Below are positions 12,140 through 37,315 of a DNA stretch of 38,360 nucleotides, one piece after another. The position numbers and the translations under genes were made by a program. The notes beneath the pieces were generated by a model, which was not told where the DNA came from, made no database searches, and was given only the letters and a program-made list of their open reading frames with translations. The stretch is from Oscillospiraceae bacterium (lineage in GTDB: Bacteria > Bacillota > Clostridia > Oscillospirales > Acutalibacteraceae), in NCBI GenBank assembly GCA_015066215.1, contig SVOU01000003.1, positions 1 through 38,360 of the forward strand. The letters run 5' to 3'. Numbering within the stretch: position 1 is the first letter of the stretch; each line of letters starts with the position of its first letter.

Positions 12140-12173
12140 TCTATACTTATTAGGTATCGAGGGAGTGTGTGTG

Positions 12174-13775: not shown

Positions 13776-13906
13776 ATGATGTTTCGCGTACTGTGCAAAC
13801 GCCTGTTGCCGATGATGCTTGCGGCAGGGCTGCTGTTGACCGGTTGTGGCGGCGCTGACGATACCGATGCCACCGTGACTACAACCGGCAAGGAAAACGG
13901 CACCAC
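13776..13906 (+). repeat. Leader repeat copy 2, paired with 12174..12304
   Basis: Nearly identical DNA encoding MMFRVLCKRLLPMMLAAGLLLTGCGGAD-TDAT-TTTGKENGTT. Confidence 0.9.
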
Positions 13907-18704: not shown

Positions 18705-19985
18705 ATGAAATCTACTATACGAGTGGCTGTTGTTGGCTGCGGCAATCGGGGCACAAACTCCTATGCGCCGTATGTCGATGCGTTTGAGGGCGTGGAGATC
18801 GTGGCGGCGGCTGAACCTATTCAGGAGCGGCGCGAGAGTTTTGCCAAGCGTTTTGGTTTGCGTCCTGATCAATGTTATGGAACTGCGGAAGAGTTTTTCT
18901 CGAAACCGCGTATGGCCGAAGTGGCGTTTATCTGCACACAGGATCAGCAGCACTATGACCACGTGATGAGTGCCATGCGGTTAGGCTATGACGTTCTGCT
19001 GGAAAAGCCGGTATCCAATGTGCCGGAGCACTGTATTGCCATTGCCGACGAGGCAAAACGGCTGGGGCGTAACGTGGTGGTTTGCCACGTGCTGCGTTAT
19101 ACGCCGTTCTATCAAAAAATCAAAGAGACCATCACGAGCGGCCGTATCGGTCAGGTGATGTCTTTGCATCAGTTTGAAGAAGTTGGCTGGGGGCACTATG
19201 CCCACAGCTTTACGCGAGGCTTGTGGAGAAATTCCGAAGAAACCTCGCCCATGATCCTGGCAAAATGCTGCCACGATATGGATATTATTTTGTGGTTGGT
19301 GGGCGAGGACTGCAAGCGCGTATCTTCGTTTGGACACCTGACCCATTTCAAAGCCGAGAATGCACCTGCCGGCAGCGAGCTGCGTTGCAACGAAAACTGC
19401 TCGGCATATGATACCTGTCCCTACAACGCAAAGAAGATCTACTTCTCCGACAAGTGGCAATGGGCGCAAGGCGCGGTGACGCTGGATCCCACGCCCGAGC
19501 GTGTGGAAGCCGCCTTGCAGGAAGGACAGTACGGCCGTTGTGTTTACCATTGTGATAACAACGTGGTGGATCACCAGATCGTCAACATGCAATTTGATAA
19601 AGATATCACCGCCTCGCTGACGATGTGTGCCTTCACCAACGATATGACGCGTGAACTCAAAATTATGGGTACCCGCGGCGAGATCACGGGCAACATGGAG
19701 AAAAACGAGATCCGTATCCGCGTGTTCGGCGAACCGGAAGAAGTTATCGATGTGACGACGCTCAGCACCGACCTGTCAGGCCACGGCGGCGGCGAGAACC
19801 GCCTGTTGCGTGATCTGTTCAACCAGACGAAGGGCGTTGCAGATGCGGTAAGCTCGCTGACCTCTATTGAGAAATCCGTGCAAAGCCACATTATGGCTTT
19901 CGCTGCGGAGCGTTCCCGTCTTGAGGACGGTCGCGTGGTTGCTCTGTCGGAAATCTATCAGGATTGCGCTTTGCCGACACCTTGA
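18705..19985 (+). CDS. Gfo/Idh/MocA-family oxidoreductase
   Basis: Rossmann N-terminus IRVAVVGCGNRGTNSYAPYV; EKPVS motif (DVLLEKPVSNVPEHC). Cys-rich insertion CNENCSAYDTC...GRCVYHCDNNVVDHQ. Confidence 0.93.
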   Translation: MKSTIRVAVVGCGNRGTNSYAPYVDAFEGVEIVAAAEPIQERRESFAKRFGLRPDQCYGTAEEFFSKPRMAEVAFICTQDQQHYDHVMSAMRLGYDVLLEKPVSNVPEHCIAIADEAKRLGRNVVVCHVLRYTPFYQKIKETITSGRIGQVMSLHQFEEVGWGHYAHSFTRGLWRNSEETSPMILAKCCHDMDIILWLVGEDCKRVSSFGHLTHFKAENAPAGSELRCNENCSAYDTCPYNAKKIYFSDKWQWAQGAVTLDPTPERVEAALQEGQYGRCVYHCDNNVVDHQIVNMQFDKDITASLTMCAFTNDMTRELKIMGTRGEITGNMEKNEIRIRVFGEPEEVIDVTTLSTDLSGHGGGENRLLRDLFNQTKGVADAVSSLTSIEKSVQSHIMAFAAERSRLEDGRVVALSEIYQDCALPTP

Positions 19986-20008: not shown

Positions 20009-22231
20009 ATGGACAGAATCGTGCAAAATCTGAATATGGCGTGGGAATACCGTGAGGTGACACAGGACGCCTTTGCGCCCATACATATTCCGCACACAAT
20101 GTGCGAACTGCCGTTCAACTGCTTCGACGAAAAAAGCTATCAGACACAAGGCGTCTATCGCCGTGTGATATTTGTTCCCGCCGATTGGGCAGGACGCCGC
20201 TTGCGTTTGCGCTTTGAAGGCGTGATGACGCAAGCACAGGTGTTTCTCAACAACACTCCCGTCGGCGCGCACGATGGTGGTTATACGCCGTTTGAGGTGG
20301 ATATCACCGATGCCGTGCGATTTGGCGGGGATAATCAGCTGGTGGTGGAAGTGGATTCCCGCGAGATCCCTACCATTCCGCCCTTTGGCGGGCAGCTGGA
20401 CTATCTCACGTTCAGTGGCATCTATCGGGACGTGACCTTGCTCGTCACCGCGCCGCTGTACGTGGAAAATGCGCGTATCACGTCGCAGAATCTGTTGACT
20501 TGTGCGCCCGCCGTCACGGCTGAGGTGTTTCTCAACAACACTACCGCCGCCAAGACGGTGCAGGTACAGGTGACGGTCAGCGGGGCAGAAGGGGTTGTCG
20601 CCACGGGCGAACAAAATCTGCCCGTGCCGTTAGGCGCACAAAGCGTGCAACTGCCGCTGACCGTGTCGCAAACGCTCAACCTGTGGGATACGGAAAACCC
20701 GCATCTGTACGAGGTGCAGATTGCCGTTCTTGCCGACGGTGTTTTGTGCGATACCTATCATCTGCGCACGGGATTTCGTGAGGCGCAGTTTACCGAGCGC
20801 GGCTTCTTACTCAACGGCAAACCGCTTAAAATTTTCGGTCTTAACCGCCACCAATCCTATCCGTACGTCGGCTATGCGATGCCGGCGCGCGCTCAACGCC
20901 GCGACGCCGACATCTTGAAGGAAGAGCTTTGCTGTAATATGGTGCGTACCTCGCACTATCCGCAATCGCCGCACTTCTTGGATCGCTGCGATGAGATCGG
21001 GCTTTTGGTCTTTGAAGAATTGCCCGGTTGGCAGTTTGTCGGCGATGAGGCGTGGCAGAAAAAAGCGCTGGTGACCATGGAAGAGATGATCCGTCGCGAC
21101 TGGAATCACCCCGCTATTGTGCTGTGGGGTGTACGCGTGAACGAATCGCTCGATTTCCACGATTTTTATACCGAAACCAATCGCGTGGCACACGCACTCG
21201 ACCCCACCCGCCAGACGGGCGGCGTACGCGCTATTGACCACAGCGAATTTCTGGAAGACGTCTATACCGCCAACGATTTTATCTTTGACGGTACCAATAC
21301 CCCCCTGCGTGCACAGCAACAGGTGACAGGGCTTTCTAAAGACGTGCCCTATCTGGTCACCGAGTGCAACGGACATATGTTTCCCACCAAAAGCTTCGAC
21401 CAAGAAGAGCGACTGGTGGAACACGCTCTGCGTCACGCGGCCGTTCACGATACGGCGGCGCAGGATGATGCCGTCAGCGGTGCGCTGGGCTGGTGTGCTT
21501 TCGACTATAACACCCACTGCCAGTTTGGCAGCGGCGACAAGATCTGCTACCACGGCGTAATGGATATGTTCCGCCTGCCCAAATATGCCGCCTATTTTTA
21601 TCAGAGCCAATGCCCGCCCGAAAAGCGCGGCGTTCTGAAAGCGGCGTCGGTGGGATCTATGGGTGAACGCAGTAAGAGCGGTATTGCGCCCTTTACCGTG
21701 TTTACCAACTATGATTTTATCCGCATTTTCTCGGGCGAACGGTTGCTGGGTGAATATTATCCCGCGCGTGACCGTTTCCCCGGCCTTGCCCACCCGCCCA
21801 TTATCGCAGAAGAGGGTTTGGGCTTTTTGTGGGGCGAAAATTGGAAAGGCTTGCGCGTGGAAGCCTGGTGGCAGGGCCGTCAGGTGGAAACGGTGGATAT
21901 GGCGGCAAGCCCCCATACGGCACGCCTGACGGCTGTTGCCGATGATAACACCCTGTTTGCCGATGGCAGTGACGTGACGCGTGTGGTTTTCCGTTTGGAA
22001 GACCAAAACGGCAACCTGCTGCCGTTTACGATGGCAGTTTTGCAGCTATCCCTGGAAGGGAACGGCACCGTCATCGGTCCGTCGCTGTTGCCCTTGCGCA
22101 GCGGTACGGTTGCCGTGTGGGTGCGTGCAGGTGAACAAGCGGGTTCCCTGCGGCTGCGCGGTGTGGCGGCGGATATGGAAGCCGTCACAGAGATCACGAT
22201 GATTTCAAAGGAAGGAGTAGACTGCGTGTGA
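20009..22231 (+). CDS. Glycoside hydrolase family 2 (beta-galactosidase/glucuronidase-like), cytoplasmic
   Basis: GH2 sugar-binding and Ig-like domains; FGLNRHQSYPYVGYAMP...DILKEELCCNMVRTSHYPQSPHFLDRCDEIGLLVFEE; acid/base region VLWGVRVNES; nucleophile region LVTECNGH. No signal peptide. Confidence 0.93.
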   Translation: MDRIVQNLNMAWEYREVTQDAFAPIHIPHTMCELPFNCFDEKSYQTQGVYRRVIFVPADWAGRRLRLRFEGVMTQAQVFLNNTPVGAHDGGYTPFEVDITDAVRFGGDNQLVVEVDSREIPTIPPFGGQLDYLTFSGIYRDVTLLVTAPLYVENARITSQNLLTCAPAVTAEVFLNNTTAAKTVQVQVTVSGAEGVVATGEQNLPVPLGAQSVQLPLTVSQTLNLWDTENPHLYEVQIAVLADGVLCDTYHLRTGFREAQFTERGFLLNGKPLKIFGLNRHQSYPYVGYAMPARAQRRDADILKEELCCNMVRTSHYPQSPHFLDRCDEIGLLVFEELPGWQFVGDEAWQKKALVTMEEMIRRDWNHPAIVLWGVRVNESLDFHDFYTETNRVAHALDPTRQTGGVRAIDHSEFLEDVYTANDFIFDGTNTPLRAQQQVTGLSKDVPYLVTECNGHMFPTKSFDQEERLVEHALRHAAVHDTAAQDDAVSGALGWCAFDYNTHCQFGSGDKICYHGVMDMFRLPKYAAYFYQSQCPPEKRGVLKAASVGSMGERSKSGIAPFTVFTNYDFIRIFSGERLLGEYYPARDRFPGLAHPPIIAEEGLGFLWGENWKGLRVEAWWQGRQVETVDMAASPHTARLTAVADDNTLFADGSDVTRVVFRLEDQNGNLLPFTMAVLQLSLEGNGTVIGPSLLPLRSGTVAVWVRAGEQAGSLRLRGVAADMEAVTEITMISKEGVDCV

Positions 22232-25125
22232 GAAGTCGAATCGGATGCTTGACAAAACGCCTTGTCGGCACGGTGTGTGCGCTGTCCCTGTTGCTGTCTG
22301 TGGGCGGTATGTGGGTCGCGGCAGAAAGTGAAAACGCGGTGCCGGACGAAGACCGTTTCACCGAGAGCCTGATGGATCGCGAAAACACGTACGCCGCGTA
22401 TGAGCTGGCCAATGCGGATCGTCCGCAGGGCACTGCGACCATAGAGCTGTTGCCTGACGCGTTTGCGACAGAGGAGCTCCTTCCGGCTATCTATGAAGAA
22501 AAATCGGCACTTTCGTTTGTCGGTGAAGGGGAGTCGGCAACGGCCACCTTCTCGGTGCAAACTGCCGGTATGTACGAGCTGCAGTTTGTGTATTATCCCA
22601 CCCCCGGCAACAGCCGTGAGGTGGAGATCGGCTTGGAATTGGACGGTTTGTTCCCGTTCAGCGAAGCGGCCGCGATCACGTTGGAGCGGGCGTGGAAGGA
22701 CAAGACTGCCATCCAAACCGACCCCATTACCGATAATCAGTATAGTCCCCGCCAAGAAGAGGCACCGATGTGGATGACCGCGCGCCTGAAAAATCGCGAC
22801 GGCAGTTATCGGGGGGCCTATCGGTTTTATCTGTCGGAAGGCGAGCATACTCTGCGCCTGACCGCCTTGCAAACCGCGTTTGCTTTCGGCGGCTGCGCTT
22901 TTGTGCCGTCTGTGACGGTGCCTACCTATCAGGAATACATAGCACAACACGGCGCGCCGCAAAACGGCACGCATATAGAGGTCTTGGAAGCGGAGGCGGC
23001 GTCGCTCAAATCCGACCAGACGCTGGTTCCCGCCAACGACCGCACCAGCCCCAACACCTCGCCCTATGACGTCGCCAAGATCCGTATGAACGTGATCGGT
23101 GCCAACTGGTCGGCGACGGCGCAGTGGATCGAATGGTCGTTTTCGGTGCCCGCTGACGGCTGGTATCGCTTAAACTTCCGTTATCAGCAGGACGCGATCA
23201 AAGGTATGCCTACCCACCGTCTGCTGACCATCGACGGCGCTACGCCCTTCAAAGAAGCGCTGACGGTGAAATTCCCCTACACCGAGCGGTGGGATTCCGT
23301 CGGCTTGCAGGATAGCGAGGGCAACGAAGCAGCGTTGTGGCTGACCGCAGGTCCGCACACGTTGCGTATGGAAACCACGTCGGGCGAGCTGACCGACTCT
23401 ATTCGTCAGCTGGACAACGTGGTGTATGATCTCAATGAAATTTATCGCCAGATCATTATGATCACGGGCGTATCTCCTGATGAATATCAGGACTATAACC
23501 TGGTTGCCAGCATTCCGAAACTGCTCGAAACGCTGTCTGCCTGCGCGGTTTCTCTGCGCAGCGCCTACGACGACGTGTCGGCACTTTCCGGCGGCAAGGG
23601 CAACTATGCGGAGCTGCTCAGCCGTTTTGCTTATCAGCTGGAAGATTTCGTGGAAGAAAGCGACACGATCGACCTGCGGTTGACCGAGTTCAAGGATAAT
23701 ATCACCGCACTGTCGGCGTGGCTGTTGGATATGAAGCAGCAGCCGTTGATGCTCGACACCATCACGGTGAGCAGCCCCGGCGTGGAGCTGCCGCGTGCCA
23801 CCGACACCTTCTGGGAGCGGTTGAAGCACGAGATTATGGCGTTTTTCGTGTCCTTCGTGGCGAACTATGACATCGTCGGCTCGGAAGACCGTCAAGAAAA
23901 CATCACCCTGTGGCTCAATTCCGGTCGCGATCAGGCACAGGTGATCAAATCGATGATCAACGATATGTTCACCGCCGAAACGGGTATCGGCGTCAATATC
24001 AAGCTGGTCAACGCCAGTTTGGTGCAGGCAAAGCTGTCGGGCAATTCCCCCGACGTGTCCATTATGCAGGGACGCGGACAACCCGTCAACCTGGCGGTGC
24101 GCAACGCGCTGCTGCCGTTGGATGAATTTGAAGGCTTTGACGAGGTGCTGACGCGTTTTCAGGAGTCGGCGGTCATTCCCTATCAGCTGGACGGCAAGAC
24201 CTACGCGTTGCCGGATTCCCAGAGCTTCTTTATGATGTTTTACCGTAAAGACGTGCTGCGGGAGCTGTTGCTGACGCCGCCCCAAACGTGGGATGAACTG
24301 AAAGCCGTGTCCTCGGTGTTGCAGCGCAACAATATGGAGATCGGTCTGCCGTATACCAGCATCGACGCCAGCGGCGCCGTAGACTCGGGTATGGGTTCGC
24401 GCAATATTTTTTCCGCGTTGCTGTTGCAGGCGGGCGGTCGCGTTTATAACGACAACCTTTCCGCAACAGAGCTGTCTACCCCTGTTTCTCAGCAGGCGTT
24501 TATCGACTGGACGGAGTTTTATCAGCTTTACGATATGCCGCTCGCCTACGATTTCTATAACCGCTTCCGCACGGGCGAGATGCCGATCGGTATTGCCTCT
24601 TACACGATGTATAACTATCTGGCAGTTGCTGCACCCGAGCTGCGCGGTCTGTGGGATATGGTGCCCATTCCCGGCACCAAAAAGGCAGACGGCAGCATTG
24701 ATATTTCGCAGGGCGGTGCAGGCAGTGCGTGTATGATCCTGTCCGATACCAAACACCCCAAGGAGTCTTGGGAGTTCCTCAAATGGTGGACGGGCGCGGA
24801 CGCCCAGATTCGTTACAGCAGCGATATCGAGGCTGTGATGGGCGTGTCGGCGCGTTATCCGACCGCCAATATGGAAGCTTTTGCCAGCGTAAACTGGACG
24901 CGGCAGGAGATGGCCAACCTCAACAAGCAGTGGTCTGCCGTGAAGGAGATTCCGGAAGCCATCGGTGGTTATACGCTGGTGCGCGGCTTGGATAACGCCT
25001 TCCGCGAGGCCGTTTTGGAAGGACGTAATGCCCGCGAGGCGTTGCTTGTCTGGGATCGCAGCATCAACGATGAGATCCGCAGAAAACGAGAGGAGTTCCA
25101 TTATGACATTGATGAAGCGTCTTAA
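22228..25125 (+). CDS. Large extracellular solute-binding protein with two N-terminal jelly-roll/CBM-like repeats
   Basis: GTG start overlapping the GH2 stop. Signal peptide without a lipobox Cys. SBP core ENITLWLNSGRDQAQVIKSMINDMFTAETGIGVNIKLVN...ALLPLDEFEGFDEVLTRF...PYQLDGKTYALPDSQSFFMMFYRKDVL...PQTWDELKAV. Followed by ABC permeases. Confidence 0.85.
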   Translation: MRSRIGCLTKRLVGTVCALSLLLSVGGMWVAAESENAVPDEDRFTESLMDRENTYAAYELANADRPQGTATIELLPDAFATEELLPAIYEEKSALSFVGEGESATATFSVQTAGMYELQFVYYPTPGNSREVEIGLELDGLFPFSEAAAITLERAWKDKTAIQTDPITDNQYSPRQEEAPMWMTARLKNRDGSYRGAYRFYLSEGEHTLRLTALQTAFAFGGCAFVPSVTVPTYQEYIAQHGAPQNGTHIEVLEAEAASLKSDQTLVPANDRTSPNTSPYDVAKIRMNVIGANWSATAQWIEWSFSVPADGWYRLNFRYQQDAIKGMPTHRLLTIDGATPFKEALTVKFPYTERWDSVGLQDSEGNEAALWLTAGPHTLRMETTSGELTDSIRQLDNVVYDLNEIYRQIIMITGVSPDEYQDYNLVASIPKLLETLSACAVSLRSAYDDVSALSGGKGNYAELLSRFAYQLEDFVEESDTIDLRLTEFKDNITALSAWLLDMKQQPLMLDTITVSSPGVELPRATDTFWERLKHEIMAFFVSFVANYDIVGSEDRQENITLWLNSGRDQAQVIKSMINDMFTAETGIGVNIKLVNASLVQAKLSGNSPDVSIMQGRGQPVNLAVRNALLPLDEFEGFDEVLTRFQESAVIPYQLDGKTYALPDSQSFFMMFYRKDVLRELLLTPPQTWDELKAVSSVLQRNNMEIGLPYTSIDASGAVDSGMGSRNIFSALLLQAGGRVYNDNLSATELSTPVSQQAFIDWTEFYQLYDMPLAYDFYNRFRTGEMPIGIASYTMYNYLAVAAPELRGLWDMVPIPGTKKADGSIDISQGGAGSACMILSDTKHPKESWEFLKWWTGADAQIRYSSDIEAVMGVSARYPTANMEAFASVNWTRQEMANLNKQWSAVKEIPEAIGGYTLVRGLDNAFREAVLEGRNAREALLVWDRSINDEIRRKREEFHYDIDEAS

Positions 25126-26071
25126 AGAGAATTATGCATGGAACCGCTCGCGCAGAGAGGATGCCCGTCGCACGCGCATCCCCTTCAAGAAGGAGCTGCG
25201 TCAAAACTATCAGCTCTATCTGATGTTGATGCCGTTTCTGCTTTTGTTCTTGCTGTTCATCATTCTCCCCATCGTCAGTGCCGTGGGATTGAGCTTTACC
25301 TACTATAACATCTATGAAGAGCCGATGTTCAACGGCTTCAAAAACTACGTCAGCCTGTTTGCCAACGACGACGTGTTTTTCATCGCCTTGAAAAACACGC
25401 TTGTCTTCGCGGTGATCACGGGCCCTGTCAGTTATGTGCTGTGCTTTTTTATCGCGTGGCTCATCAACGAGATGTCGCCGCGTGTGCGCGTGCTGATGAC
25501 CTGTATCTTTTACGCGCCGACGCTGGCGTCATCGGTGTTTTTCATCTGGCAGTTCATTTTCAGCGGTGACTCTTACGGCTTTATGAACAGCATATTGATG
25601 AAACTGGATCTCATCCGTGAGCCGATTCAGTGGCTTGCCGACGCGCGGTACAGCTTGGCCGTGCTGATGGTCGTGCAGATCTGGATGAGCCTCGGCACCA
25701 GCTTTTTGGCGTTTATCGCCGGCTTCAAAGCGGTGGATCCCAGCTTGTATGAAGCGGCGGACATCGACGGTGTGCGCAACCGCTATCAGGAGCTGGCGTA
25801 TATCACCCTGCCCATTATGAAACCGCAGTTGGTGTTCAGCGCCGTGATGCAGATTTCCGCATCCTTCTCGGTGAGTACCATTTCTATGCAGTTGTGCGGT
25901 TTCCCCAGCACGAAATATTCCGCGCACACCATCGTGTTGCACATTATGGACTACGGCAATATCAAATATGAGATGGGCTATGCCTGTGCGATTGCCGTGG
26001 TGCTGTTTGCCATTATGCTGTTGGTCAAATTCTTGGTTGACCGCGTGTTGGCGTTGCTTGGTTCAGAATAA
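25103..26071 (+). CDS. Sugar ABC transporter permease (LplB/UgpA type)
   Basis: Multi-TM; MPFLLLFLLFIILPIVSAVGLSF; EAA-like loop YEAADIDGVRNRYQELAYITLPIMKPQLVF. Start ATG 25103 overlaps the SBP 3' end. Confidence 0.95.
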   Translation: MTLMKRLKENYAWNRSRREDARRTRIPFKKELRQNYQLYLMLMPFLLLFLLFIILPIVSAVGLSFTYYNIYEEPMFNGFKNYVSLFANDDVFFIALKNTLVFAVITGPVSYVLCFFIAWLINEMSPRVRVLMTCIFYAPTLASSVFFIWQFIFSGDSYGFMNSILMKLDLIREPIQWLADARYSLAVLMVVQIWMSLGTSFLAFIAGFKAVDPSLYEAADIDGVRNRYQELAYITLPIMKPQLVFSAVMQISASFSVSTISMQLCGFPSTKYSAHTIVLHIMDYGNIKYEMGYACAIAVVLFAIMLLVKFLVDRVLALLGSE

Positions 26072-26089
26072 ACGAAAGGAGGGCGTATT

Positions 26090-26959
26090 TTGTTCGGGAT
26101 AAAAAAGGCTTCGACACGCAACCGCCACGCAAACCGTACGCGGTTCGGTACCTTTATGATCTTTCTGTTTTTGGGTTTGCTCGGTGCGTTTATGATATTG
26201 CCGCTTTTGTACGGTATTCTCAACGCCTTTAAGCCGCTGGAAGAGATCTATATCTATCCGCCGCGCTTTTGGGTGCGCAACCCCACGATGGAAAACTTTT
26301 CTATGTTGTTTAAGCTGGCGTCGGGACTGCAAGTGCCGTTCAGCCGATACGCCTTCAACAACATATTCGTTTCGGTAGTCACGACGGTAGGACACGTGGT
26401 CATCTCCTCGATGGCGGCGTTTCCGCTCGCCAAATACAGATTGCGTATTGGTTGGCTGTTCAAGGTGGTGGTCAGCTGTCTGATGTTCAGCTCCGCCGTT
26501 TTGTGGATCCCGCAATACGTGATTATGTCCCGCCTGGGAATGATCGACACCTATTGGGTGTATATCCTGCCGGCGTTGCCGGCACCGATCGGTGTCTTTC
26601 TGATGAAGCAGTTTATGGAGCAGATCCCCTTCGTTTTGGTGGAATCTGCGACGATTGACGGCGCAAGCCAGTGGCGCACCTTCTGGAGTATTGTGATGCC
26701 GCAGGTCAAGCCCGCGTGGCTGACCTTGGCGCTGTTTGCTTTCCAAGGTGTCTGGAACCAGAGTCTGCAAGGCTTGGTGTTCAGCGAAGAGTTAAAAATG
26801 TTGGGTGATGCGATCAGCCAGATCATGGCGGGCGGTTTTGTCCGTATGGGCGCATCTATGGCGGGTAGCGTATTTATGATCATACCGCCGTTCCTGTTGT
26901 TCTTGGGAACACAAAACCGCGTTATCGAAACGATGGCGCACTCGGGTATCAAAGGTTAA
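26090..26959 (+). CDS. Carbohydrate ABC transporter permease (UgpE/LplC type)
   Basis: TTG start after an AAAGGAGGG RBS. Multi-TM; EAA loop VESATIDGASQWRTFWSIVMPQVKPAWLTL. Confidence 0.94.
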   Translation: MFGIKKASTRNRHANRTRFGTFMIFLFLGLLGAFMILPLLYGILNAFKPLEEIYIYPPRFWVRNPTMENFSMLFKLASGLQVPFSRYAFNNIFVSVVTTVGHVVISSMAAFPLAKYRLRIGWLFKVVVSCLMFSSAVLWIPQYVIMSRLGMIDTYWVYILPALPAPIGVFLMKQFMEQIPFVLVESATIDGASQWRTFWSIVMPQVKPAWLTLALFAFQGVWNQSLQGLVFSEELKMLGDAISQIMAGGFVRMGASMAGSVFMIIPPFLLFLGTQNRVIETMAHSGIKG

Positions 26960-26982
26960 CCTACGCGAAGGAGTGAATACGG

Positions 26983-29067
26983 GTGACACGTTTTATACCG
27001 AAAACCGTGATAGCGGTGCTGGTCATTATGTTGTTATTGACCCCCGTTTTTCAAGTTGCGGCCGCGTCGGTTGACGAAGGATACGGCTATAACAGCTACG
27101 ACGAGTCTGTACCTGCCCCTGCGGGCTATCAGGACGACCTGACCGTCTACGGTCAGGTGTCGCCCGAAGGGTCCTTCGGTATGGCGCAGGATATGGCGAC
27201 CTATGACGGTGAACTGTACGTGCTCAACAGCAAGATCGGCATTATCACGGTGCTCAACGCCGATCTGGAATATCAACGCAGCATTCGCTTTACCCGCGAT
27301 GGGGAAGAGCTGTCCGTCGTGGGTGCCAACGGTATGTTTTTGGACAAGACCGACGACGGCTTGCAGATCTTGCTGGCAGATACCGAAAACCAGCGGGTGT
27401 TGCGCGCCGACGCAACGGGTCGCGTGATGCAGGTCTATCAAAAACCCACGGAGGAATTGTTCCCCCAAAAACAAGAATTTCGTCCTACCAAGGTGTTGGT
27501 AGGCAGCGATAAAACCGTTTACGTGATCTGCCAGGGCGTCTATAAAGGCGCAGTCACGTTCTCTGCCGACGGTGAATTTCTCGGCTTTTACGGCAGCAAC
27601 GATATTGATATTACCGCGGCTATGCTGTTGGAGCATTTTTGGAAAAGCCTGATGAACCAGGAACAGTTGGGTCGCGTACAACAAAACGTGTCCATTGAGT
27701 TTACCAATTTCGCGGCAGATTCCCGCGGGTTTATCTACACCTGCACCCGCGTCACCGATAACTCTATGGGCGAGATCAAACGCCTCAACGCCAAGGGCAT
27801 CAACCTGTTGCCTGTGGACAATTACGGCGATCTGGAAGATGCGTGGATCAAGAGCGAGCATCAGGACACCGCATTTGTCGACATCGTGTCGATCAACGAC
27901 AATTTGGTGGCGGCGTTGGATACCCAGCGCGGTCGCGTGTTCCTGTATAGCAACGACGGTATGCTGCTGATGATCTTCGGCGGCAGCGGACAGTTCCAAG
28001 GGACGTTCCGTACCCCTTCGGCGTTGGAATGTATCGGCGACAGTATCTACGTGTTGGATCCTTACAAGGATTCCATCACACGGTTTGCTCCCACGTCCTA
28101 CGGAACGGCGCTGTTGACGGCGTCGTCCCTGTATCAGGACGGACGGTATGCCGAGTCGCTGGATCTGTGGAAACAGGTGATTCGGCAAAACGGCAACTTT
28201 GAAACGGCGTACGTCGGCATCGGTCGCGCGCTGATGGGACAAGAGGACTATGCCGGCGCGATGGACTATTTCAAAAAAGGTCAGGACCGCACGGGTTATT
28301 CCCAAGCCTATAAAGAATATCGCAAGACCAGCGCACAATTTCTGGTGGCGCCGATGCTCATAGCCATCGTGGTGCTTTTGGTGGTGTATGGCTTGTATGC
28401 GCGCTATCTGCGCGGACCGAAGCGTGAAGTAAGCCTGACAACCGCCTCGGTAGCAAGACGGTGCAGCCACACGCTGCTGCATCCTACCGACGGTTTTACA
28501 GCCCTGATGAACGCGCCGCGCCGCGGGATTTCGGTGCTGTGCGGTATATTGATCACCTGCCTGTTTGGTGTGGCGATCCTTCACCGTCAGGCAACGGCGT
28601 TTGTGTTTAACGAAAACAAGCTGGAAGAGTTGGATATCCGTATGATCTTTGCGATCACGGTGATCGTGTTCTTTGCCTTCGTGCTGTCCAACCGCTTGGT
28701 GTGTACGCTGTTTAACGGCAACGGCGCGGTGCGCGAGATTATATGCGTCTGTGCCGTATCGTTGATACCGATGATGTTGGCGATGGTGCTGAAAATCGCC
28801 ATCAGCCATTTCCTGTCGCTGGATGAAGGCGGTCTGCTGACTGCTTTGATGGTGATAGGCATTATGTGGTCTGTGTTGCTCCTGCTGGCAGGTATGCGAC
28901 AGATCCACGAATACGATACCAAGCAAGCGGTGCTGTCGGTGATATTCACCGTTATCGGTATGATGCTGATGGCGTTTATCGGCTTGCTGGTCTATGGACT
29001 TTACAACCAGATCGCCGCATTTTTCGGCGCGATCATCGACGAGATCTCGTATATTGGTATGACCTAA
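26983..29067 (+). CDS. NHL/beta-propeller plus TPR-like plus C-terminal Yip1-like membrane domain protein
   Basis: Signal-like N-terminus; NHL-like repeats (DMATYDGELYVLNSKIGIITVLNADLEYQRSIRF; ILLADTENQRVLRADATGRVMQVY; PTKVLVGSDKTVYVICQGVYKGAVTFSADGEFLGFYG). TPR-like AYVGIGRALMGQEDYAGAMDYFKKGQDRTGYSQAYKEYR; then several TM helices. Confidence 0.75.
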   Translation: MTRFIPKTVIAVLVIMLLLTPVFQVAAASVDEGYGYNSYDESVPAPAGYQDDLTVYGQVSPEGSFGMAQDMATYDGELYVLNSKIGIITVLNADLEYQRSIRFTRDGEELSVVGANGMFLDKTDDGLQILLADTENQRVLRADATGRVMQVYQKPTEELFPQKQEFRPTKVLVGSDKTVYVICQGVYKGAVTFSADGEFLGFYGSNDIDITAAMLLEHFWKSLMNQEQLGRVQQNVSIEFTNFAADSRGFIYTCTRVTDNSMGEIKRLNAKGINLLPVDNYGDLEDAWIKSEHQDTAFVDIVSINDNLVAALDTQRGRVFLYSNDGMLLMIFGGSGQFQGTFRTPSALECIGDSIYVLDPYKDSITRFAPTSYGTALLTASSLYQDGRYAESLDLWKQVIRQNGNFETAYVGIGRALMGQEDYAGAMDYFKKGQDRTGYSQAYKEYRKTSAQFLVAPMLIAIVVLLVVYGLYARYLRGPKREVSLTTASVARRCSHTLLHPTDGFTALMNAPRRGISVLCGILITCLFGVAILHRQATAFVFNENKLEELDIRMIFAITVIVFFAFVLSNRLVCTLFNGNGAVREIICVCAVSLIPMMLAMVLKIAISHFLSLDEGGLLTALMVIGIMWSVLLLLAGMRQIHEYDTKQAVLSVIFTVIGMMLMAFIGLLVYGLYNQIAAFFGAIIDEISYIGMT

Positions 29068-29091
29068 TCCGAAGAAGGAGAGATGCAAGGG

Positions 29092-31350
29092 ATGAAAACA
29101 AAACGATTCCTGCGGTTGCTGGCGGCTTCGACAGCGGTACTGCTGATACTCTCTGTTTTCGGGTGTTCTTCGGCAGACAGCGTACAGGAAGACGACAAAA
29201 CGCCGCCGATGGAACGGGGGGTACGGTTGTCGGGCGACGGATTTACCGAAGTTGCCGCCAACGACCGCTTTGCGCTGTCGTGTGATACGGAAAACGGCGT
29301 ATTGCTTTTGCTGGACCGTCAGACGGGTCGGCAATATCGCAGCAATCCCGAAAACGTCAAGGACGATCCGCTTGCCAAGGGTATTACGCGCACGAATATG
29401 AGTTCGCAGCTGCTCATCACCGTGGCAGATCAAAAAGGCAACATCGATCCTTATAACTCTTCCGTGGATGCGGTGGGCGAGAACGGACTTGTGGTATCGC
29501 GTACGGAAAACGGGATCATCTTGGACTACAACTTCAAACGGCTGGGCATCAATATCCCGCTGGTCATCACGCTGAGTGATGAGGGGATCAAAGCAAGTGT
29601 CTTGCTCAATGAGGTGCAAGAAACCAACGAAAAATATCGCTTGGTCTCGGTCGGCGTGTTGCCGTATTTCGGTGCCGCAAACTCCGAAGAAGAGGGCTAC
29701 GTGTTGTTGCCCGACGGCAGCGGTGCGCTTTTGCGTTTCAACAACGGCAAAACCACCTACGGCTATTACACCAAGCCTGTGTATAACAACGATGCCTACG
29801 AGAGCGGGCAATTCGGCTCCAACACCGGCGAAGCGGTGATGCTGCCGCTTTACGGTATGCACTATGACGCGACCGAAAACGGCAAAGAAGCCGGTTTCGT
29901 GACGCTGGTTTCCGAGGCGGCGGCGATGGCTACCCTCAACGCCACGCCTGCGGGTGTGAATTGCAGTTATAACAACGCCTATTTCTCCTTTGTCTATCGC
30001 ACGGCAAAGGAAGTCAGTGTGCTCAGCCGTACGTGGGCAGAAAAAGCCTTCAATATGGTATCGAAGTACACGGCAACGAGTGATAACCCGACGATGGAAT
30101 ATTGTTTCCTGCAATCGGAAACTACGGGCTATACCGATATGGCGCGCTTTGTCAGCGACCGTCTGCAACAGATGGGTGCCACTCCAAAAGCCGCCACGCC
30201 TTCGCTGGTGCTGGACGTTTACAGCACGGTGGTCAAGTTGGGCTACACGCTGGGTATTCCCCACGACAAGTCGGAAGTGATCACCGATTTCGTTCAAACA
30301 GAGGCGATCTTGCAGGATATGCAGGCGCACAACGTGACCTTGCGGTTGCTGGGCTGGGACGAAGACGGTGCCGTGGGCGGCAGCGTGCGCAACGATTATG
30401 ATCCCGCGTCGGTCGCAGGCGGTGATAAAGGACTCGAAGCCCTGTTTGCCGCCGCTGACAAAATGGGCGTGCCGATCTATCTGGAAGCAGAGCCGATGCG
30501 GTTTACCGACGGCACGTTGCAGTATAACGCCCTGTTCCACGCCGCCACCCAGATCACGAACAAACCCATCAAGGTGTATACCTATCGCCGCAGTACGAAC
30601 GAGCGCAACACGTTGGTGGATACCTATTCGCTGTTGTCACCGCAGTATCTGCCCGAGGTGGTAGGGGATATGAACGCCTCGTTGCCCGACGGTATGCATT
30701 TGTCGCTGGGCTCGCTCGGACAGTACACCTATGCGGATTTCGGTAAGCAGTTTTTCAGCCGTGAGCAGACGGCAGACGTTGCCGCCTCGCTGATTGCACA
30801 GGTGGCAGAAAACCGCAAACTTTACGGTGAAAATCCCGCGTGGTACGCACTGCCGTATATGCAAGTGGCAGCAGACGTGCCGCTTTACAGCAGCAAATAT
30901 AACTATTTTGATGAATCCGTTCCTTTCGTGCAGTTGGTACTGCGCGAGCTGATGACGGTGTCCACCCCGTCGGTCAACCTGTCGGGCGAGCCGCAAAAGG
31001 TGTTTTTGCGGGCGGTGGAAACCGGTTGCAATCTGAAATTCTCCTTCATCGGTTGCTCGTATGAGGAGATTCGCGATACCCAGTTGAACGTGTTGTACGG
31101 TGCAGAATACGCCCTGTGGAAAGACGAGGCACTGCACTATCAGAAAGAGCTGGAAACGGCGCTCGACGGTCTTGGCAACGTGTCCATTAGCGAGCACCGT
31201 ATGCTGACCGACACGCTGGTATCGGTCATTTACGAAAACGGCGTCGAGATTTTGGTCAACTATGGCCGTGAAGCCTGTACCGTGGGCGAAGATACGGTAG
31301 AGGCGCTCTCGTGGTTGCGCCGTACGCAGACGGGAGGTGCCGACGTATGA
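29092..31350 (+). CDS. DUF5696-like lipoprotein
   Basis: Lipobox-like LILSVFGCSS. Long extracellular domain (DRFALSCDTENGVLLLLDRQTGRQYRSNPENV...; YVLLPDGSGALLRFNNGK...). Family name is from remembered architecture and context, unverified. Start 29083 or 29092. Confidence 0.65.
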   Translation: MKTKRFLRLLAASTAVLLILSVFGCSSADSVQEDDKTPPMERGVRLSGDGFTEVAANDRFALSCDTENGVLLLLDRQTGRQYRSNPENVKDDPLAKGITRTNMSSQLLITVADQKGNIDPYNSSVDAVGENGLVVSRTENGIILDYNFKRLGINIPLVITLSDEGIKASVLLNEVQETNEKYRLVSVGVLPYFGAANSEEEGYVLLPDGSGALLRFNNGKTTYGYYTKPVYNNDAYESGQFGSNTGEAVMLPLYGMHYDATENGKEAGFVTLVSEAAAMATLNATPAGVNCSYNNAYFSFVYRTAKEVSVLSRTWAEKAFNMVSKYTATSDNPTMEYCFLQSETTGYTDMARFVSDRLQQMGATPKAATPSLVLDVYSTVVKLGYTLGIPHDKSEVITDFVQTEAILQDMQAHNVTLRLLGWDEDGAVGGSVRNDYDPASVAGGDKGLEALFAAADKMGVPIYLEAEPMRFTDGTLQYNALFHAATQITNKPIKVYTYRRSTNERNTLVDTYSLLSPQYLPEVVGDMNASLPDGMHLSLGSLGQYTYADFGKQFFSREQTADVAASLIAQVAENRKLYGENPAWYALPYMQVAADVPLYSSKYNYFDESVPFVQLVLRELMTVSTPSVNLSGEPQKVFLRAVETGCNLKFSFIGCSYEEIRDTQLNVLYGAEYALWKDEALHYQKELETALDGLGNVSISEHRMLTDTLVSVIYENGVEILVNYGREACTVGEDTVEALSWLRRTQTGGADV

Positions 31351-32240
31351 AAAAACCTCATCGTCGTATGTCCTTGGCCACACGGCAGGGCTTAAGCGGG
31401 TTTTTGTTCATCTCTCCGTGGTTGGTCGGTGTCACCGTTTTCTTCCTGATTCCGTTTTTCAGCACCATCATCTATGCATTCGGCAAGGTGCAGTTCGTTT
31501 CGGGCGGTGTGGAATATGAGTTCACCGGCTGGGAAAATATCCGCGAGGTGTTTTTCCGCGATCCCGACAACTTCCGTATGATTCTGGAAAATCTGGGCTC
31601 ATCCATCGGCAGCGTGTTGCTCGTGTTGGTATTTTCTCTGTTTGCCGCGTTGTTGCTCAACCAGAAATTCCACGGTCGCGCCGTTGTGCGTGCGCTTTTC
31701 GCATTGCCGATCATCGTGTCCTCCGGCGTGTTGCTGATGGTGTTCAAGGAAGACCTGTTTGCACAGTCTATGATGTCCGAGCCGGGCACCATCTTCCAAA
31801 GCTCCGCGTTGGAAGATACGCTGACGAATATGGGATTGGGTCACGAGTTCGTCACCTTTGTCACCGACTTCGTCGATAATATTATGGACATCATCTGGAA
31901 ATCCGGCGTGCAGATTTTGCTGTTCTTGGCAGGCTTGCAGGCGGTTCCGCGCACGTTGTATGAGGTGAGTTCGGTGGAAGGCGCCACGGCGTGGCAAACC
32001 TTCTGGAAGATCACCTTCCCGTTGCTGGCTCCCTACATCGTGCTCAACAGCGTCTACTCTATCATTGATTCCTTCACATTCTATGACAATCCCGTGATGG
32101 AAAAGGTCAACAAGTTGTTTGGCGAGATGAGCTATGGACACGCATCTGCGCTGTCAATTGCCTACTTCCTGCTGATATTCTTGCTGACGGCGACGGTGCT
32201 GGTGATCTCGTCACGCCGCGCGTTCTATCAGGAAAAGTAA
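31347..32240 (+). CDS. Sugar ABC transporter permease (second pair, UgpA type)
   Basis: Multi-TM; GFLFISPWLVGVTVFFLIPFFSTIIYAFGKV; EAA-like YEVSSVEGATAWQTFWKITFPLLAPYIVLN. Confidence 0.94.
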   Translation: MKKPHRRMSLATRQGLSGFLFISPWLVGVTVFFLIPFFSTIIYAFGKVQFVSGGVEYEFTGWENIREVFFRDPDNFRMILENLGSSIGSVLLVLVFSLFAALLLNQKFHGRAVVRALFALPIIVSSGVLLMVFKEDLFAQSMMSEPGTIFQSSALEDTLTNMGLGHEFVTFVTDFVDNIMDIIWKSGVQILLFLAGLQAVPRTLYEVSSVEGATAWQTFWKITFPLLAPYIVLNSVYSIIDSFTFYDNPVMEKVNKLFGEMSYGHASALSIAYFLLIFLLTATVLVISSRRAFYQEK

Positions 32241-32279
32241 TCTTTCGATATCCGAAGCACAGGAGGTGCGGACGTTTTG

Positions 32280-33230
32280 ATGACAAAACTGAATATGAAT
32301 GTGGATTGGAATCGGTTGGGAAGCCGAGCCGTCAAGCGGTGGATCTGGCCGTTTTGCCGTGCGATGATCCTGTTCGGCATCTGTTTCCTACTGCTCTATC
32401 CGCTGTTGTTTATGTTTACCAGCGCGTTTCGCAGCCGAGAGGATATGTGGGATCCCTCGGTGGTGTGGATCACGCGCAACTTCACCTTGGAACATCTCGA
32501 AACCCTGATCGACGTGATCAACTATCCCAAAGCCCTCACCAACACGCTGCTCATCAGCGTAGGTACTGCAACGTTGCAGATGCTGGTGTGCTCGCTGGCG
32601 GGATATGGCTTTGCGCGGTTCCGCTTCAAGGGCCGCGAGGCACTGTTTTTGCTGGTGATATTCACCATCATCGTGCCGCCGCAGGCGATCATCAACGGTC
32701 TATATATGATTATGCGCTTTTTCCATATCCCCATATATTCTCTGTTTGCCGGCTCGGTCAATATGCTGGACACGCCGATGGCGTTTTGGGTGCAGGGACT
32801 TTTGGGAATGGGATTGCGCTCGGGCTTCTTCATATTTATCTATCGACAGTTTTATCGAGGAATGCCTGCCGATCTGGAAAACGCCGCGCTCATCGACGGT
32901 TGCGGTGCGTTCAAAACTTACTTGCGCGTAATGTTGCCAAATGCTATTATGGTGATGGTGACGGTGTTTATGTTCTCACTGGTGTGGCACTGGAACGACT
33001 CCTACACGACCAGTATTTTGTCACCTAACAACCAAACGCTGTCGGTGGCGTTGGCGGATCTGCGTATCATCGTCTTCCGACTGGACGGTGCAGGCGAAGA
33101 GGATCCGATGATCACGCAAGTGCGTGTGCAGGCGGGTGCGTTGCTCTCGATTTTGCCCATGCTGATACTGTTTATGTTTACCCAAAAAACTTTCACAGAA
33201 AGCATAGAGCGTACGGGCATCGTCGGATGA
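32280..33230 (+). CDS. Carbohydrate ABC transporter permease (second pair, UgpE type)
   Basis: Multi-TM; EAA loop LENAALIDGCGAFKTYLRVMLPNAIMVMVTVFMFSLVWHWND. ATG 32280 after an AGGAGG RBS. Confidence 0.94.
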   Translation: MTKLNMNVDWNRLGSRAVKRWIWPFCRAMILFGICFLLLYPLLFMFTSAFRSREDMWDPSVVWITRNFTLEHLETLIDVINYPKALTNTLLISVGTATLQMLVCSLAGYGFARFRFKGREALFLLVIFTIIVPPQAIINGLYMIMRFFHIPIYSLFAGSVNMLDTPMAFWVQGLLGMGLRSGFFIFIYRQFYRGMPADLENAALIDGCGAFKTYLRVMLPNAIMVMVTVFMFSLVWHWNDSYTTSILSPNNQTLSVALADLRIIVFRLDGAGEEDPMITQVRVQAGALLSILPMLILFMFTQKTFTESIERTGIVG

Positions 33231-33241
33231 TCCAAGCGTTC

Positions 33242-33278
33242 CGATCATCGCCGTTTGTGCAGCTGACGGCGATGATCG
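33242..33278. other. Intercistronic hairpin between permease and solute-binding protein genes
   Basis: CGATCATCGCCG-tttgtgcagctga-CGGCGATGATCG, 12-bp perfect stem, no U-tract. Confidence 0.7.
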
Positions 33279-33315
33279 CAACAAAAGCTGCGTATTTAGA
33301 AAAGGAGTGCGACTA

Positions 33316-34662
33316 ATGAAAAAGATGACTCGATGGATCAGCCTGTTGTGCTGCCTGCTGATGGTTCTCGCGTTCTTGGGCGGCTGCGGTGACAACGGCA
33401 ACGGCGATGACACCGATACCACCAAAACCACCGTGGCGGCGCCTAACTATGGCGACCGTCCGCTGGAAGACAACGTGAACACCGACCAGATTGGCTTTGA
33501 AAAGAAGGAACTGGCAAACGCCAACGTCACCCTGTTCCTGCCGTATGAGCCCACCGATGATGCCAAAGAGCGCATCGCGGCTTATGAAACCTATTACGGC
33601 GGCAAAGTGAATCTGATCACCTGCTCTTGGGACGTGCGTATTTCCCGCTTGGCACAGTTGATCCAGTCCGGCGACTCCCCCGACGTTGTGTCGGTGGTGT
33701 GCAGTGATATGCCCACCTTCGCGGTGAAGGGTCTGTTGGATCCTATCGACGGCTATACCGATCTGACCAACAAGGTGTATCATCAGGAAAGCAACGACGG
33801 CATTTACAGCTTTAACGGCAAGCATTATGCGCTTACCACCTTCGCCGCTCCCTATGCTATCTTCTTCAACCGTACTATGTTCAAACGCGCGGGCGTGACC
33901 GCTCCCGACGAGCTGTACAAAGAGGGCAACTGGAACTGGGATACCTTCCGTCAGACCGCTCTGGATATGAGCGAGGACACCGATCAGGACGGCTTCAACG
34001 ACGTGTGGGGCTTCGGCACCTGGCGTGACGACATCTTCCTGACCGCCAACGGCACCGACCTCATCAAAATGGAAGACGGTTATCCCGTGCTCAACGTGAC
34101 TGATCCCAAGGTTTCCAAGGGTCTGCAACTGTTCCAGGATATGTTCTACACCGACCTGTCCATCCAGAAAGCACACTGGGGCTGGTACGAAGGCTTCCGC
34201 GATAAGAAAGTGGCGATGGTCTTTGAAGGCGCCGATTGGCAGATCAGCCGTCTGCTGGCCGAGGGCTTTGAAGATGAGATCGGCATCGTGCCGTTCCCGA
34301 TGGGCCCCGACGCCACTGAGCAGGTCAACTATGTTGCCAATACCGGCTTCGGCCTGGGTAAAGACGCCCCCAACAAAGAGGGCGGCGCTGCCTTTATCGA
34401 ATTCTTCCTCGCCGAAGGCTATAAGAGCATGATGCAGGGCAAAGGCTGGTCTCACCTGACTGATGACCAGTACGATATGCTGCACAGCATGCTCAGCCAA
34501 AAGGCTGTTGTGTCTTTGACCACTGCCTACGGTGATTTCTCCACCAAGTTCTTCAACCTGACCGACGATCTGCGCGCGGGCAAACCTGTGGGTACGCTGC
34601 TGCAATCCTACGCCCCCGTTTTGCAGGCGGAAATCGACAAGGTGGTTTCTTCGGACGTCTGA
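33316..34662 (+). CDS. Extracellular solute-binding lipoprotein (family 1 type)
   Basis: Lipobox LAFLGGCGDN; VTLFLPYEPTDDAKERIAAYETYYGGKVNLITCSWDVRISRLAQLIQSGDSPDVVSVVCSDMPTFAVKGLLDPIDGYTDL; DTFRQTALDMSEDTDQDGFNDVWGFG. Confidence 0.93.
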   Translation: MKKMTRWISLLCCLLMVLAFLGGCGDNGNGDDTDTTKTTVAAPNYGDRPLEDNVNTDQIGFEKKELANANVTLFLPYEPTDDAKERIAAYETYYGGKVNLITCSWDVRISRLAQLIQSGDSPDVVSVVCSDMPTFAVKGLLDPIDGYTDLTNKVYHQESNDGIYSFNGKHYALTTFAAPYAIFFNRTMFKRAGVTAPDELYKEGNWNWDTFRQTALDMSEDTDQDGFNDVWGFGTWRDDIFLTANGTDLIKMEDGYPVLNVTDPKVSKGLQLFQDMFYTDLSIQKAHWGWYEGFRDKKVAMVFEGADWQISRLLAEGFEDEIGIVPFPMGPDATEQVNYVANTGFGLGKDAPNKEGGAAFIEFFLAEGYKSMMQGKGWSHLTDDQYDMLHSMLSQKAVVSLTTAYGDFSTKFFNLTDDLRAGKPVGTLLQSYAPVLQAEIDKVVSSDV

Positions 34663-34686: not shown

Positions 34687-37275
34687 ATGAAAAACCGTTA
34701 TTTTGCACGGCGCATTATCGCCCTTGCCTGTTGCTTTGTGATGGCGATAGCGATGACGGGCTGCGGCGCGGATGACGGCGGCGAGGTGAGTACGACGACT
34801 GCAACAACCACAACAACGGCCGCCGATGCTCCTTCTAACGATGGCGGCGATAAGGGCACGACGGCTGCGACCGGCGGTACGACGACCACGACCACCGGTA
34901 CGACGAACGTGCCGACGGATACAGAAAGCAAGCCCAATCCGCCGACGCGTATTCCCGCGGCGCCGGATAAGCCGTACGTGGATCCGACGACGATCAATGC
35001 GGTGGGCGCCCCTGCACCCGAATGGATGCGCGAGGGCGAGATGTATACCCACGGCACCTATCTCATCCCCGGCGATTTTATGTATGACCTCAACGAGTGG
35101 GCACCCTATTTCAACTTCATTACCGGCTCTGCTTGGAACACCGATACCAACAACACCTACCGCGAGCTTGGTGTGAAGAGCGACTCGTATTTCGACCCCT
35201 ACCACGTTTTCAGCGACCACAACATTACCGTGATGACCGCGCGTGGTGAGTACGTGCAATCAGACTATATCGAGCCGGGTCGCAACGACTTGTACGTGGT
35301 TTGCCACAACTGTCCCGATATGACGCTGCCGTGGGCGTATGACTATATCGACCGCGCCATGTCCTTTGGACAGACGGGTATGTTCTTTGACGATATCCGC
35401 GCTCCCTATGAGAGCATCGCCAAAGCGTATAATACCTGCTACTCCACCAACCACAAACATACGTTGACGGGCACCAATACCTACAACTATTTCCACAGCA
35501 CCCTGCCCGCCATCTACGACTACGTCAAAAAGCAAAATCCCAACTTCTACGTACTGCTCAACGGCGGCAACCCCATGTCGCCCGCCGATGACGTGAGTAC
35601 GCCCAAAACGGTTTGGCCGTTTGCTGACGCACTTATGTGGGAGCACGCTATCTATGACGCCAACACCACCAAGTGGTGCTCGTGGGCGATGCTGAAAAAT
35701 GCGGCGGAGATTTTGAAGCCCGGCATCGACAACGGCAAGGTGGAATTGCTCCTGTCCTATTCCTACAACAAGATGACCAAGCAAAAGGCCTTGGATGCCG
35801 TGAAGTATACGCTGGCCTATTGCCGCCTCTACGACTATATGTGGAGTGATTATAACACTCTGCTGACCTCGCCGCTTGGCTTGGATCAGGTCAAAGAGGT
35901 CTACGGCACCAAGACCGGCCCTGCGGGCGCCTATGGCGTGTTCTACGGTCGCGTGGTGGAGGCAACGAGCGGTGCGGCTATTGCGGGTGTGACCGTGAAG
36001 GCTGGCAATGTCAAGGCGACCACCGACGATAACGGCTACTTCTCCATCAGGACGCCGAAAAACACCACCACCGTGACCCTCACTTGCGACGGCTATAAAA
36101 CCACGTCGCAGCGCTTGACGGGCTATCAGGATAACCTGAAAATGGAAAAGACGAGTGGCAAGACCTATTATGTCGCGCCTTTCGGCAGCAACGACAACGA
36201 CGGTCTGTCCAAAGCCACCCCGTGGCGCAGCATCAACAACGGTGATGCGAAGGGTATTCTCAAGCCCGGTGACACGGTCGTGCTGACCGAGGGTACGTAC
36301 AGCGTGCCCAACCAAACGGTCTACAAGTCTTCCGGTACCGCCGATGCGCCCATCACCTATATAGCGGACGGCTACGTGGTCGTGCGTACGGCACAGGGCA
36401 ACGGTTCTCCGTTTGTGCTGAAAGGTAACTATACGGTGTGGGACGGCATTATCTTTGAAGGCAGCCAAGCGGGCGTGAAGAGCCTGATGACCGTCGTCGG
36501 CAACTATAACCACATCCGCAACTGCGAATTCGGTGATACCGCGTTCTATAACGAAGCCAACAAGCTGTCGGCTGAGTCGGCGGTCACCATTCGCGGTGAA
36601 AACACCAAGTTCCACCACAACGTGCTCGGCAGTGACGTCTATGCGTCGACCGCGTTGCGTGTGGAGGCGAAATCTGCCGAAATCCTGCACAATACCTTTG
36701 ACGGTACCTTGACCGCAGGCGGCAAAACCAAAACGGCACTCACCCTGACCAATGCGGGCGACTCCATCGTGATCAAGAACAATATGTTCAGCACCTACGA
36801 TCAGGCGTACGCAAACGGCAAGGGAGCCACCTTTGCGGGCAACTTCTTCAACAAGACCTCGCGCGATGCGGCTTGTGCCGGCGACAAGGATCAGTTGGAC
36901 AAGGATCCCTGTTTTATGTGGCAACTCTCGGGCGACTATGACCTCAAACGCACCAGCCCCGCTGTCAATGCGGGCGTGTATGCGGGCTTTGCCTATCGCG
37001 GCTCTGCTCCCGACATCGGTGCTTGGGAGACCGCCTACAACGACAACTATGATGCGGTGCTCAACGGCCGCGTGATGACGCGCGTCTTTGCCAACACGGT
37101 GGTGCTGCTCAACACCTCGCTCGCTGAGCAGGTGGTTTCGGTACCGCTTGGCGTGTCCGGCGCGCAGCTCAAAGAAGTTTTGGGCGACAAGATCTGGACG
37201 GCTGACGGCAGTGGCAACCTTCTGGTGACGGTGCCCGCTGACCGCGCACTCATTTTGGTCGGCGTGGACAAATAA
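34687..37275 (+). CDS. Multidomain lipoprotein: TIM-barrel GH-like domain, carboxypeptidase-regulatory-like domain, right-handed beta-helix
   Basis: Lipobox MTGCGAD and Thr-rich linker. Barrel-like segment (YDYIDRAMSFGQTGMFFDDIRAPYES...FYVLLNGGNPMSPADD). VFYGRVVEATSGAAIAGVTVKAGNVKATTDDNGYFSI. YYVAPFGSNDNDGLSKATPWRSINNGDAKGILKPGDTVVLTEGTY followed by beta-helix-like N-rich repeats. Confidence 0.8.
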   Translation: MKNRYFARRIIALACCFVMAIAMTGCGADDGGEVSTTTATTTTTAADAPSNDGGDKGTTAATGGTTTTTTGTTNVPTDTESKPNPPTRIPAAPDKPYVDPTTINAVGAPAPEWMREGEMYTHGTYLIPGDFMYDLNEWAPYFNFITGSAWNTDTNNTYRELGVKSDSYFDPYHVFSDHNITVMTARGEYVQSDYIEPGRNDLYVVCHNCPDMTLPWAYDYIDRAMSFGQTGMFFDDIRAPYESIAKAYNTCYSTNHKHTLTGTNTYNYFHSTLPAIYDYVKKQNPNFYVLLNGGNPMSPADDVSTPKTVWPFADALMWEHAIYDANTTKWCSWAMLKNAAEILKPGIDNGKVELLLSYSYNKMTKQKALDAVKYTLAYCRLYDYMWSDYNTLLTSPLGLDQVKEVYGTKTGPAGAYGVFYGRVVEATSGAAIAGVTVKAGNVKATTDDNGYFSIRTPKNTTTVTLTCDGYKTTSQRLTGYQDNLKMEKTSGKTYYVAPFGSNDNDGLSKATPWRSINNGDAKGILKPGDTVVLTEGTYSVPNQTVYKSSGTADAPITYIADGYVVVRTAQGNGSPFVLKGNYTVWDGIIFEGSQAGVKSLMTVVGNYNHIRNCEFGDTAFYNEANKLSAESAVTIRGENTKFHHNVLGSDVYASTALRVEAKSAEILHNTFDGTLTAGGKTKTALTLTNAGDSIVIKNNMFSTYDQAYANGKGATFAGNFFNKTSRDAACAGDKDQLDKDPCFMWQLSGDYDLKRTSPAVNAGVYAGFAYRGSAPDIGAWETAYNDNYDAVLNGRVMTRVFANTVVLLNTSLAEQVVSVPLGVSGAQLKEVLGDKIWTADGSGNLLVTVPADRALILVGVDK

Positions 37276-37283
37276 TGAACTTA

Positions 37284-37315
37284 AAAAACCGCCGCCTCGT
37301 TTGGCGGCGGTTTTT
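37284..37315 (+). terminator. Intrinsic terminator of the large operon
   Basis: AAAAACCGCCGCC-tcgttt-GGCGGCGGTTTTT directly after the stop at 37275. Confidence 0.92.

Follow-up and report, generated by a model that had tools for sequence, protein, structure and literature searches.

A conserved eight-gene module of Bacillota with two predicted sugar importers and a DUF5696 lipoprotein of predicted GH129/GH101-type fold

Eight genes at 22228–34662 of the analysed stretch of DNA form a real conserved module of Bacillota and not a chance arrangement, as tests on 130 loci and on 399 genomes indicate. The window, by which we mean the whole stretch of 38,360 bases, is one complete contig (G000:C99) of a 1.5 Mb draft genome that is 81% complete. 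We think it fairly likely that the module serves the capture and import of glycans at the cell surface, by means of two importers, a shared ATPase and accessory surface proteins. SBP1 and permeases A and B would make up one type I (MalFG/CUT1-like) importer, and SBP2 and permeases C and D, paired by position, would make up the second; both would draw on a multitask MsmX/UgpC-type ATPase whose gene lies elsewhere. The CBM-like domains of SBP1 may hold polysaccharide fragments, the DUF5696 lipoprotein may bind glycan rather than cut it, and the NHL/TPR/Yip1 protein may anchor the surface parts at the membrane. Linked extracellular hydrolases (GH2 in the window; GH10, GH43, GH26, GH38 and others in relatives) would release the oligosaccharides taken up.

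As far as the open-access literature shows, the near-obligate pairing of components, the accessory protein of predicted GH129 fold and the CBM-bearing SBP are undescribed. The open-access papers searched contained no description of the eight-gene set, in line with the suggestion of an earlier, sequence-only reading that the module may be conserved but functionally undescribed; searches there for DUF5696, for bacterial Yip1 with NHL and importers, and for pseudo-GH129 gave no relevant result.

Gene order and conservation of the module

All eight open reading frames were found in the order given by the sequence-only reading, and Pfam agrees with it. The first gene encodes SBP1 (22228..25125, plus strand as for all genes of the module), a giant secreted solute-binding protein of 965 aa without a clear lipobox, in which Pfam detects SBP_bac_1 (85 bits). 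It is followed by permease A (25103..26071; MalF-like, EAA loop EAADIDG...ITLP), permease B (26090..26959; MalG-like, ESATIDG...IVMP), a membrane protein with NHL propeller-like, TPR and Yip1 parts that is presumed to be an extracellular scaffold (26983..29067), the DUF5696 lipoprotein (29083..31350), permease C (31347..32240; MalF-like, EVSSVEG...ITFP), permease D (32280..33230; MalG-like, EAA-type loop ENAALIDG...VMLP) and SBP2 (33316..34662), a lipoprotein with an SBP_bac_1 match of 79 bits. Pfam finds BPD_transp_1 in all four permeases. In the NHL/TPR/Yip1 protein the Yip1 part is assigned by Pfam and the TPR match is sub-threshold; the NHL call comes from weak similarity to solved NHL propellers and from one NCBIfam NHL model. 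Starts were refined from ribosome-binding sites for permease A (25103), permease C (31347), permease D (~32280) and SBP2 (~33316).

The gaps among the eight genes range from –23 to +85 nt, all genes lie on one strand and their ribosome-binding sites are good. Directly upstream, on the same strand, a GH2 glycoside hydrolase gene (20009..22231) overlaps the SBP1 gene by 4 nt and is itself preceded by a gene for a Gfo/Idh/MocA oxidoreductase (18705..19985, plus strand). Downstream, a gene for a secreted lipoprotein (34687..37275, plus strand) is the last before a terminator-like hairpin (37289–37307). Given the close spacing, the ribosome-binding sites, the flanking genes and the hairpin, the whole arrangement fits one predicted operon. 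The downstream lipoprotein has a CarboxypepD_reg-like domain and then a region resembling PDB 7v6m; it gave no match to a catalytic family and is probably a carbohydrate-active enzyme. On the minus strand, a 1168-codon open frame (27034–30540) runs antisense to the NHL/Yip1 and DUF5696 genes; it has no Pfam match and is most likely an effect of composition.

To follow the neighbourhood across Bacillota, ORFs were labelled around DUF5696 genes in regions from the sampled genomes and in 80 regions from named genome records. With eight lone-DUF5696 loci set aside, 130 Bacillota loci were counted; they are not all independent, as some regions may be one genome present in two collections. The gene immediately before DUF5696 encodes NHL/Yip1 in 124 of these 130 loci, and the gene immediately after it encodes permease C in 127; permeases C and D occur together in 122. 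SBP1 and permeases A and B are all present in 112 of the loci, and 105 contain an SBP2-like gene; in the remaining 25, some of them at contig edges, SBP2 was not detected. Exceptions to the conserved order are mostly due to contig edges or to a spurious ORF between two core genes. The strong conservation bears out the similar neighbourhoods in other Firmicutes to which the sequence-only reading had pointed. Named genera with the module are Paenibacillus, Cohnella and Bacillus, and it is also present in Clostridia MAGs. In many loci of the three named genera NHL/TPR and Yip1 are separate ORFs and SBP2 comes first, whereas in the window the two parts are fused and SBP2 comes last. A second NHL/Yip1-DUF5696-C-D cassette, cut by the contig end, is present in the source genome (G000:C79:32000-45532, L069).

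The sequence-only reading would have given way if its accessory genes stood beside permeases only sporadically. This is not the case for the module lineage, although a separate lineage of lone DUF5696 genes does exist. It comprises eight loci (L084, L086, L088, L089, L090, L093, L094 and L096) from Acutalibacteraceae, the family of the window, and has no adjacent permeases; the neighbours, where checked, include a sigma factor, FtsK/SpoIIIE, an inorganic pyrophosphatase and a two-component system.

Predicted folds of DUF5696 and SBP1

The window DUF5696 protein matches its Pfam family (PF18952) with 478 bits against a gathering score of 25.6. A structural model built on 44 homologues (mean pLDDT 88.6) was compared with solved structures by Foldseek, and the matches were DagB (5opq, 8rzk; E 7e-30), NagBb (GH129, 5wzn; E 1e-23), GH101 (E 1e-17) and GH36. 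A sequence profile, which is independent of the model, also recovered DagB (5e-16) and NagBb (2e-8). As judged from model and profile, DUF5696 is a GH129/GH101-fold protein. The Pfam family Glyco_hydro_129 (PF11308) has no match in this protein and none in the source genome, and no DagB relative was found among plasmids. The predicted fold, together with the CBM-like N-terminus of SBP1, had been missed by the sequence-only reading; it offers a role that can be tested for a Pfam family so far without an assigned function.

The nucleophile of NagBb, D435, corresponds to D486 of DagB, which also needs D202, E517 and E531 (PMC5698469). Our alignment of DUF5696 to solved GH129 chains ended before the nucleophile and was bridged through a Bacillota GH129 relative (L210) and the DagB numbering (PMC5698469). 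This placed the nucleophile at position 544 and DagB E517 at position 583 of the window protein, with moderate certainty of the columns, the register resting on motif spacing and a low-scoring local alignment. Position 544 is Ser in the window and Asp in 88 of 132 module members, with Ser, Thr, Tyr, Asn or His in many members; the conserved nucleophile Asp looked for as a mark of GH129 is thus not seen. Position 583, the equivalent of the acid/base, is Glu in the window and Glu or Asp in 66/132. Several other acidic residues are retained far more often (D211 in 124/132, D237 in 121/132, D552 in 118/132 and E646 in 125/132), so that the catalytic centre may have shifted.

Catalytic residues of glycosidases are normally invariant. 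Variation in the columns equivalent to catalytic ones is something that a working glycosidase family is unlikely to tolerate, which favours a binding role: DUF5696 is probably a former glycosidase, predicted to bind glycan and not to cut it. It resembles NagBb (GH129), the GH129-like DagB and the GH101 glycosidases in overall fold and in significant profile similarity, but differs from them in that the canonical catalytic positions are not conserved, in its linkage to importers and in an identity of only ~12%.

One alternative, to which we give distinctly less weight than to the capture-and-import reading, is that DUF5696 does cut glycans outside the cell, by means of changed catalytic residues, as a trimming enzyme co-transcribed with two ordinary importers. 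Its fold would suit such an enzyme, as would the four conserved acids and the Asp that two thirds of module members, and all members of the lone lineage (8/8, where Asp552 is likewise present in 8/8), carry at the nucleophile position. Moreover, the catalytic acids of the GH129-like DagB themselves differ from those of NagBb (PMC5698469). The substitutions at position 544, including the Ser of the window, argue against this alternative, as does the constancy of DUF5696 while the linked hydrolases vary.

In the model of SBP1, two jelly rolls with the CBM6/CBM35-like fold occupy residues ~60–385, a helical bundle ~385–505 and SBP_bac_1 ~560–910. The ~540 residues before the SBP domain give almost no Pfam signal and have 46% mean identity across 86 loci. 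Pfam CBM_35 matches were obtained in 8 of 40 SBP1 homologues; the window SBP1 has no Pfam CBM match. The closest solved chain to the C-terminal half is Lin1841, a Listeria SBP (PDB 5ysb; E 6e-11), which SBP1 resembles in this half but from which it differs by the N-terminal CBM/helical region.

Permease pairs, ATPase and co-inheritance of the parts

The EAA loop is the contact of a permease to its ATPase. We found it kept in all four permease families (122/125, 122/124, 125/131 and 123/127 sequences, as counted by a regular expression). The expression missed the loop of the window permease D, which was read by eye; an apparent loss of the motif in that protein was rejected, as the motif is present with residues outside the expression. 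In the permease tree A, B, C and D are separate lineages, with A grouping with C (MalF-like) and B with D (MalG-like). Each pair therefore holds one MalF-like and one MalG-like BPD_transp_1 subunit, as expected of type I (CUT1) importers with EAA loops and family 1 SBPs, and this fits the double transporter proposed in the sequence-only reading.

A six-frame scan of the window found no ORF with both Walker A and the ABC signature, in agreement with the sequence-only reading; signature-like matches occurred only in SBP1 and in a 66-aa frame, neither of which has a P-loop. The same reading had placed the ATPase elsewhere, and the source genome does encode a MalK/UgpC/MsmX-type ATPase on another contig (G000:C62:6685-7818, 487 bits), the one protein of this type over the curated cut-off. 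An ATPase of the MsmX/UgpC type exceeds the cut-off in each of the 24 module genomes tested, and 20 of these gave exactly one match at E<=1e-100. No importer-type ATPase lies inside the module in any of the 130 loci. Candidates for one in L168, L186, L188, L191, L199 and L204 were rejected: their ABC signatures belong to downstream exporter-like proteins of 651–742 aa with 5–6 predicted TM segments, and two of these were counted inside the module only because a remote SBP-like match had stretched the interval. These proteins, seen in several Paenibacillus and related genomes, are most like ABC exporter halves.

With EAA loops, two heterodimeric pairs and a lone MsmX/UgpC-type ATPase, the module is predicted to encode two type I sugar importers with a shared multitask ATPase. 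In transport terms the module is a variation on an established type. BPD_transp_1 heterodimers, a family 1 SBP, EAA loops and an ATPase encoded elsewhere are likewise features of the MsmX importers of Bacillus subtilis, and the energy supply follows the MsmX/MsmK multitask-ATPase pattern (PMC5730181, PMC7658222). The module departs from MsmX systems in keeping two permease pairs and two SBPs as one set, and in having a CBM-bearing giant SBP as well as NHL/Yip1 and DUF5696 proteins, which are not known importer parts.

We then compared the occurrence of the components across 399 Bacillota genomes, taking full-length DUF5696 at E below 1e-20 and the SBP1 N-terminal profile at E below 1e-50. DUF5696 was found in 41 genomes, SBP1 in 43 and neither in 356; these genomes are phylogenetically non-independent, and co-occurrence is no proof of physical association. 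SBP1 is present in all 41 genomes with full-length DUF5696, other contigs included, and DUF5696 in 41 of the 43 with SBP1, the two exceptions (G098 and G141) being drafts split into 90 and 140 contigs. The link is more than adjacency, since the three best copies of DUF5696 and of SBP1 in G058 and G037 are in part on separate contigs. About one in ten sampled Bacillota genomes (41/399) carries the module, often in several copies. Because the pairing of SBP1 and DUF5696 is almost without exception, polysaccharide use may depend on these accessory subunits, which are not known from sugar importers.

Across the 86 loci that hold the full set of eight, the pairwise divergences of any two components correlate (r 0.89–0.98). 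Common ancestry contributes to this correlation, which shows co-inheritance and not contact. Permease A is more conserved than C in 99% of locus pairs and B more than D in 97%, and the half with A, B and SBP1 is more conserved than that with C, D, SBP2 and DUF5696. We infer that the faster-changing half faces a variable substrate.

These data also bear on the view, to which we likewise give distinctly less weight, that two independent importers for two sugars merely travel together, with NHL/Yip1 and DUF5696 serving C/D only. The module does consist of two cassettes, SBP1-A-B and NHL/Yip1-DUF5696-C-D, that swap order (L112, L120, L122, L124 and L125) or lie apart, and the unequal conservation of the two permease pairs is in keeping with separate roles. 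Near-perfect genome-wide co-occurrence speaks against it, as does the correlated divergence, though shared ancestry alone can give such a correlation. A module that works chiefly as a signalling sensor at the surface, with NHL/Yip1 as relay and transport secondary, is improbable: the accessory proteins are unusual and histidine kinases flank the module in 4 of 68 relatives, but the conserved core has no kinase or DNA-binding domain and the EAA loops kept in all four permease families argue for active transport.

The capture-and-import reading can be carried further, to all eight proteins forming one surface complex in which NHL/Yip1 would be a scaffold joining two importers that share an ATPase and are fed by a former GH129-type glycosidase that has become a glycan-binding subunit. 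We advance this tentatively, as a candidate Gram-positive counterpart of Sus-type uptake and less probable than the general reading. Sus-type uptake in Bacteroidota combines lipoproteins that bind glycans at the surface with hydrolases and an importer. The likeness is one of functional analogy only; Bacillota ABC permeases replace the outer-membrane SusC/SusD, and no homologous parts were seen.

Linked hydrolases and neighbouring surface proteins

The module often adjoins hydrolases for different plant or host glycans. Among the flanking genes of 68 relatives scanned we counted GH10 (12), GH43 (9), GH30 (4), GH38 (4) and GH9, GH26, GH95 and alpha-L-fucosidase (2 each). In two loci (L129 and L131) five to six consecutive SBP2-like matches follow the module, which suggests an expansion of binding proteins.

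Farther upstream in the window, three secreted proteins (11273–12139, 12165–13667 and 15536–18565) have an unnamed repeat domain in common and surround a GH32 gene. The largest of them (15536–18565) carries several copies of the domain and ends in NPDTG, a hydrophobic stretch and RKRR, like a sortase anchor. Two neighbouring secreted proteins begin with near-identical signal/lipobox sequences (12165–12260 and 13776–13860; MMFRVLCKRLLPMMLAAGLLLTGCGGAD), apparently a sign of recent local duplication.
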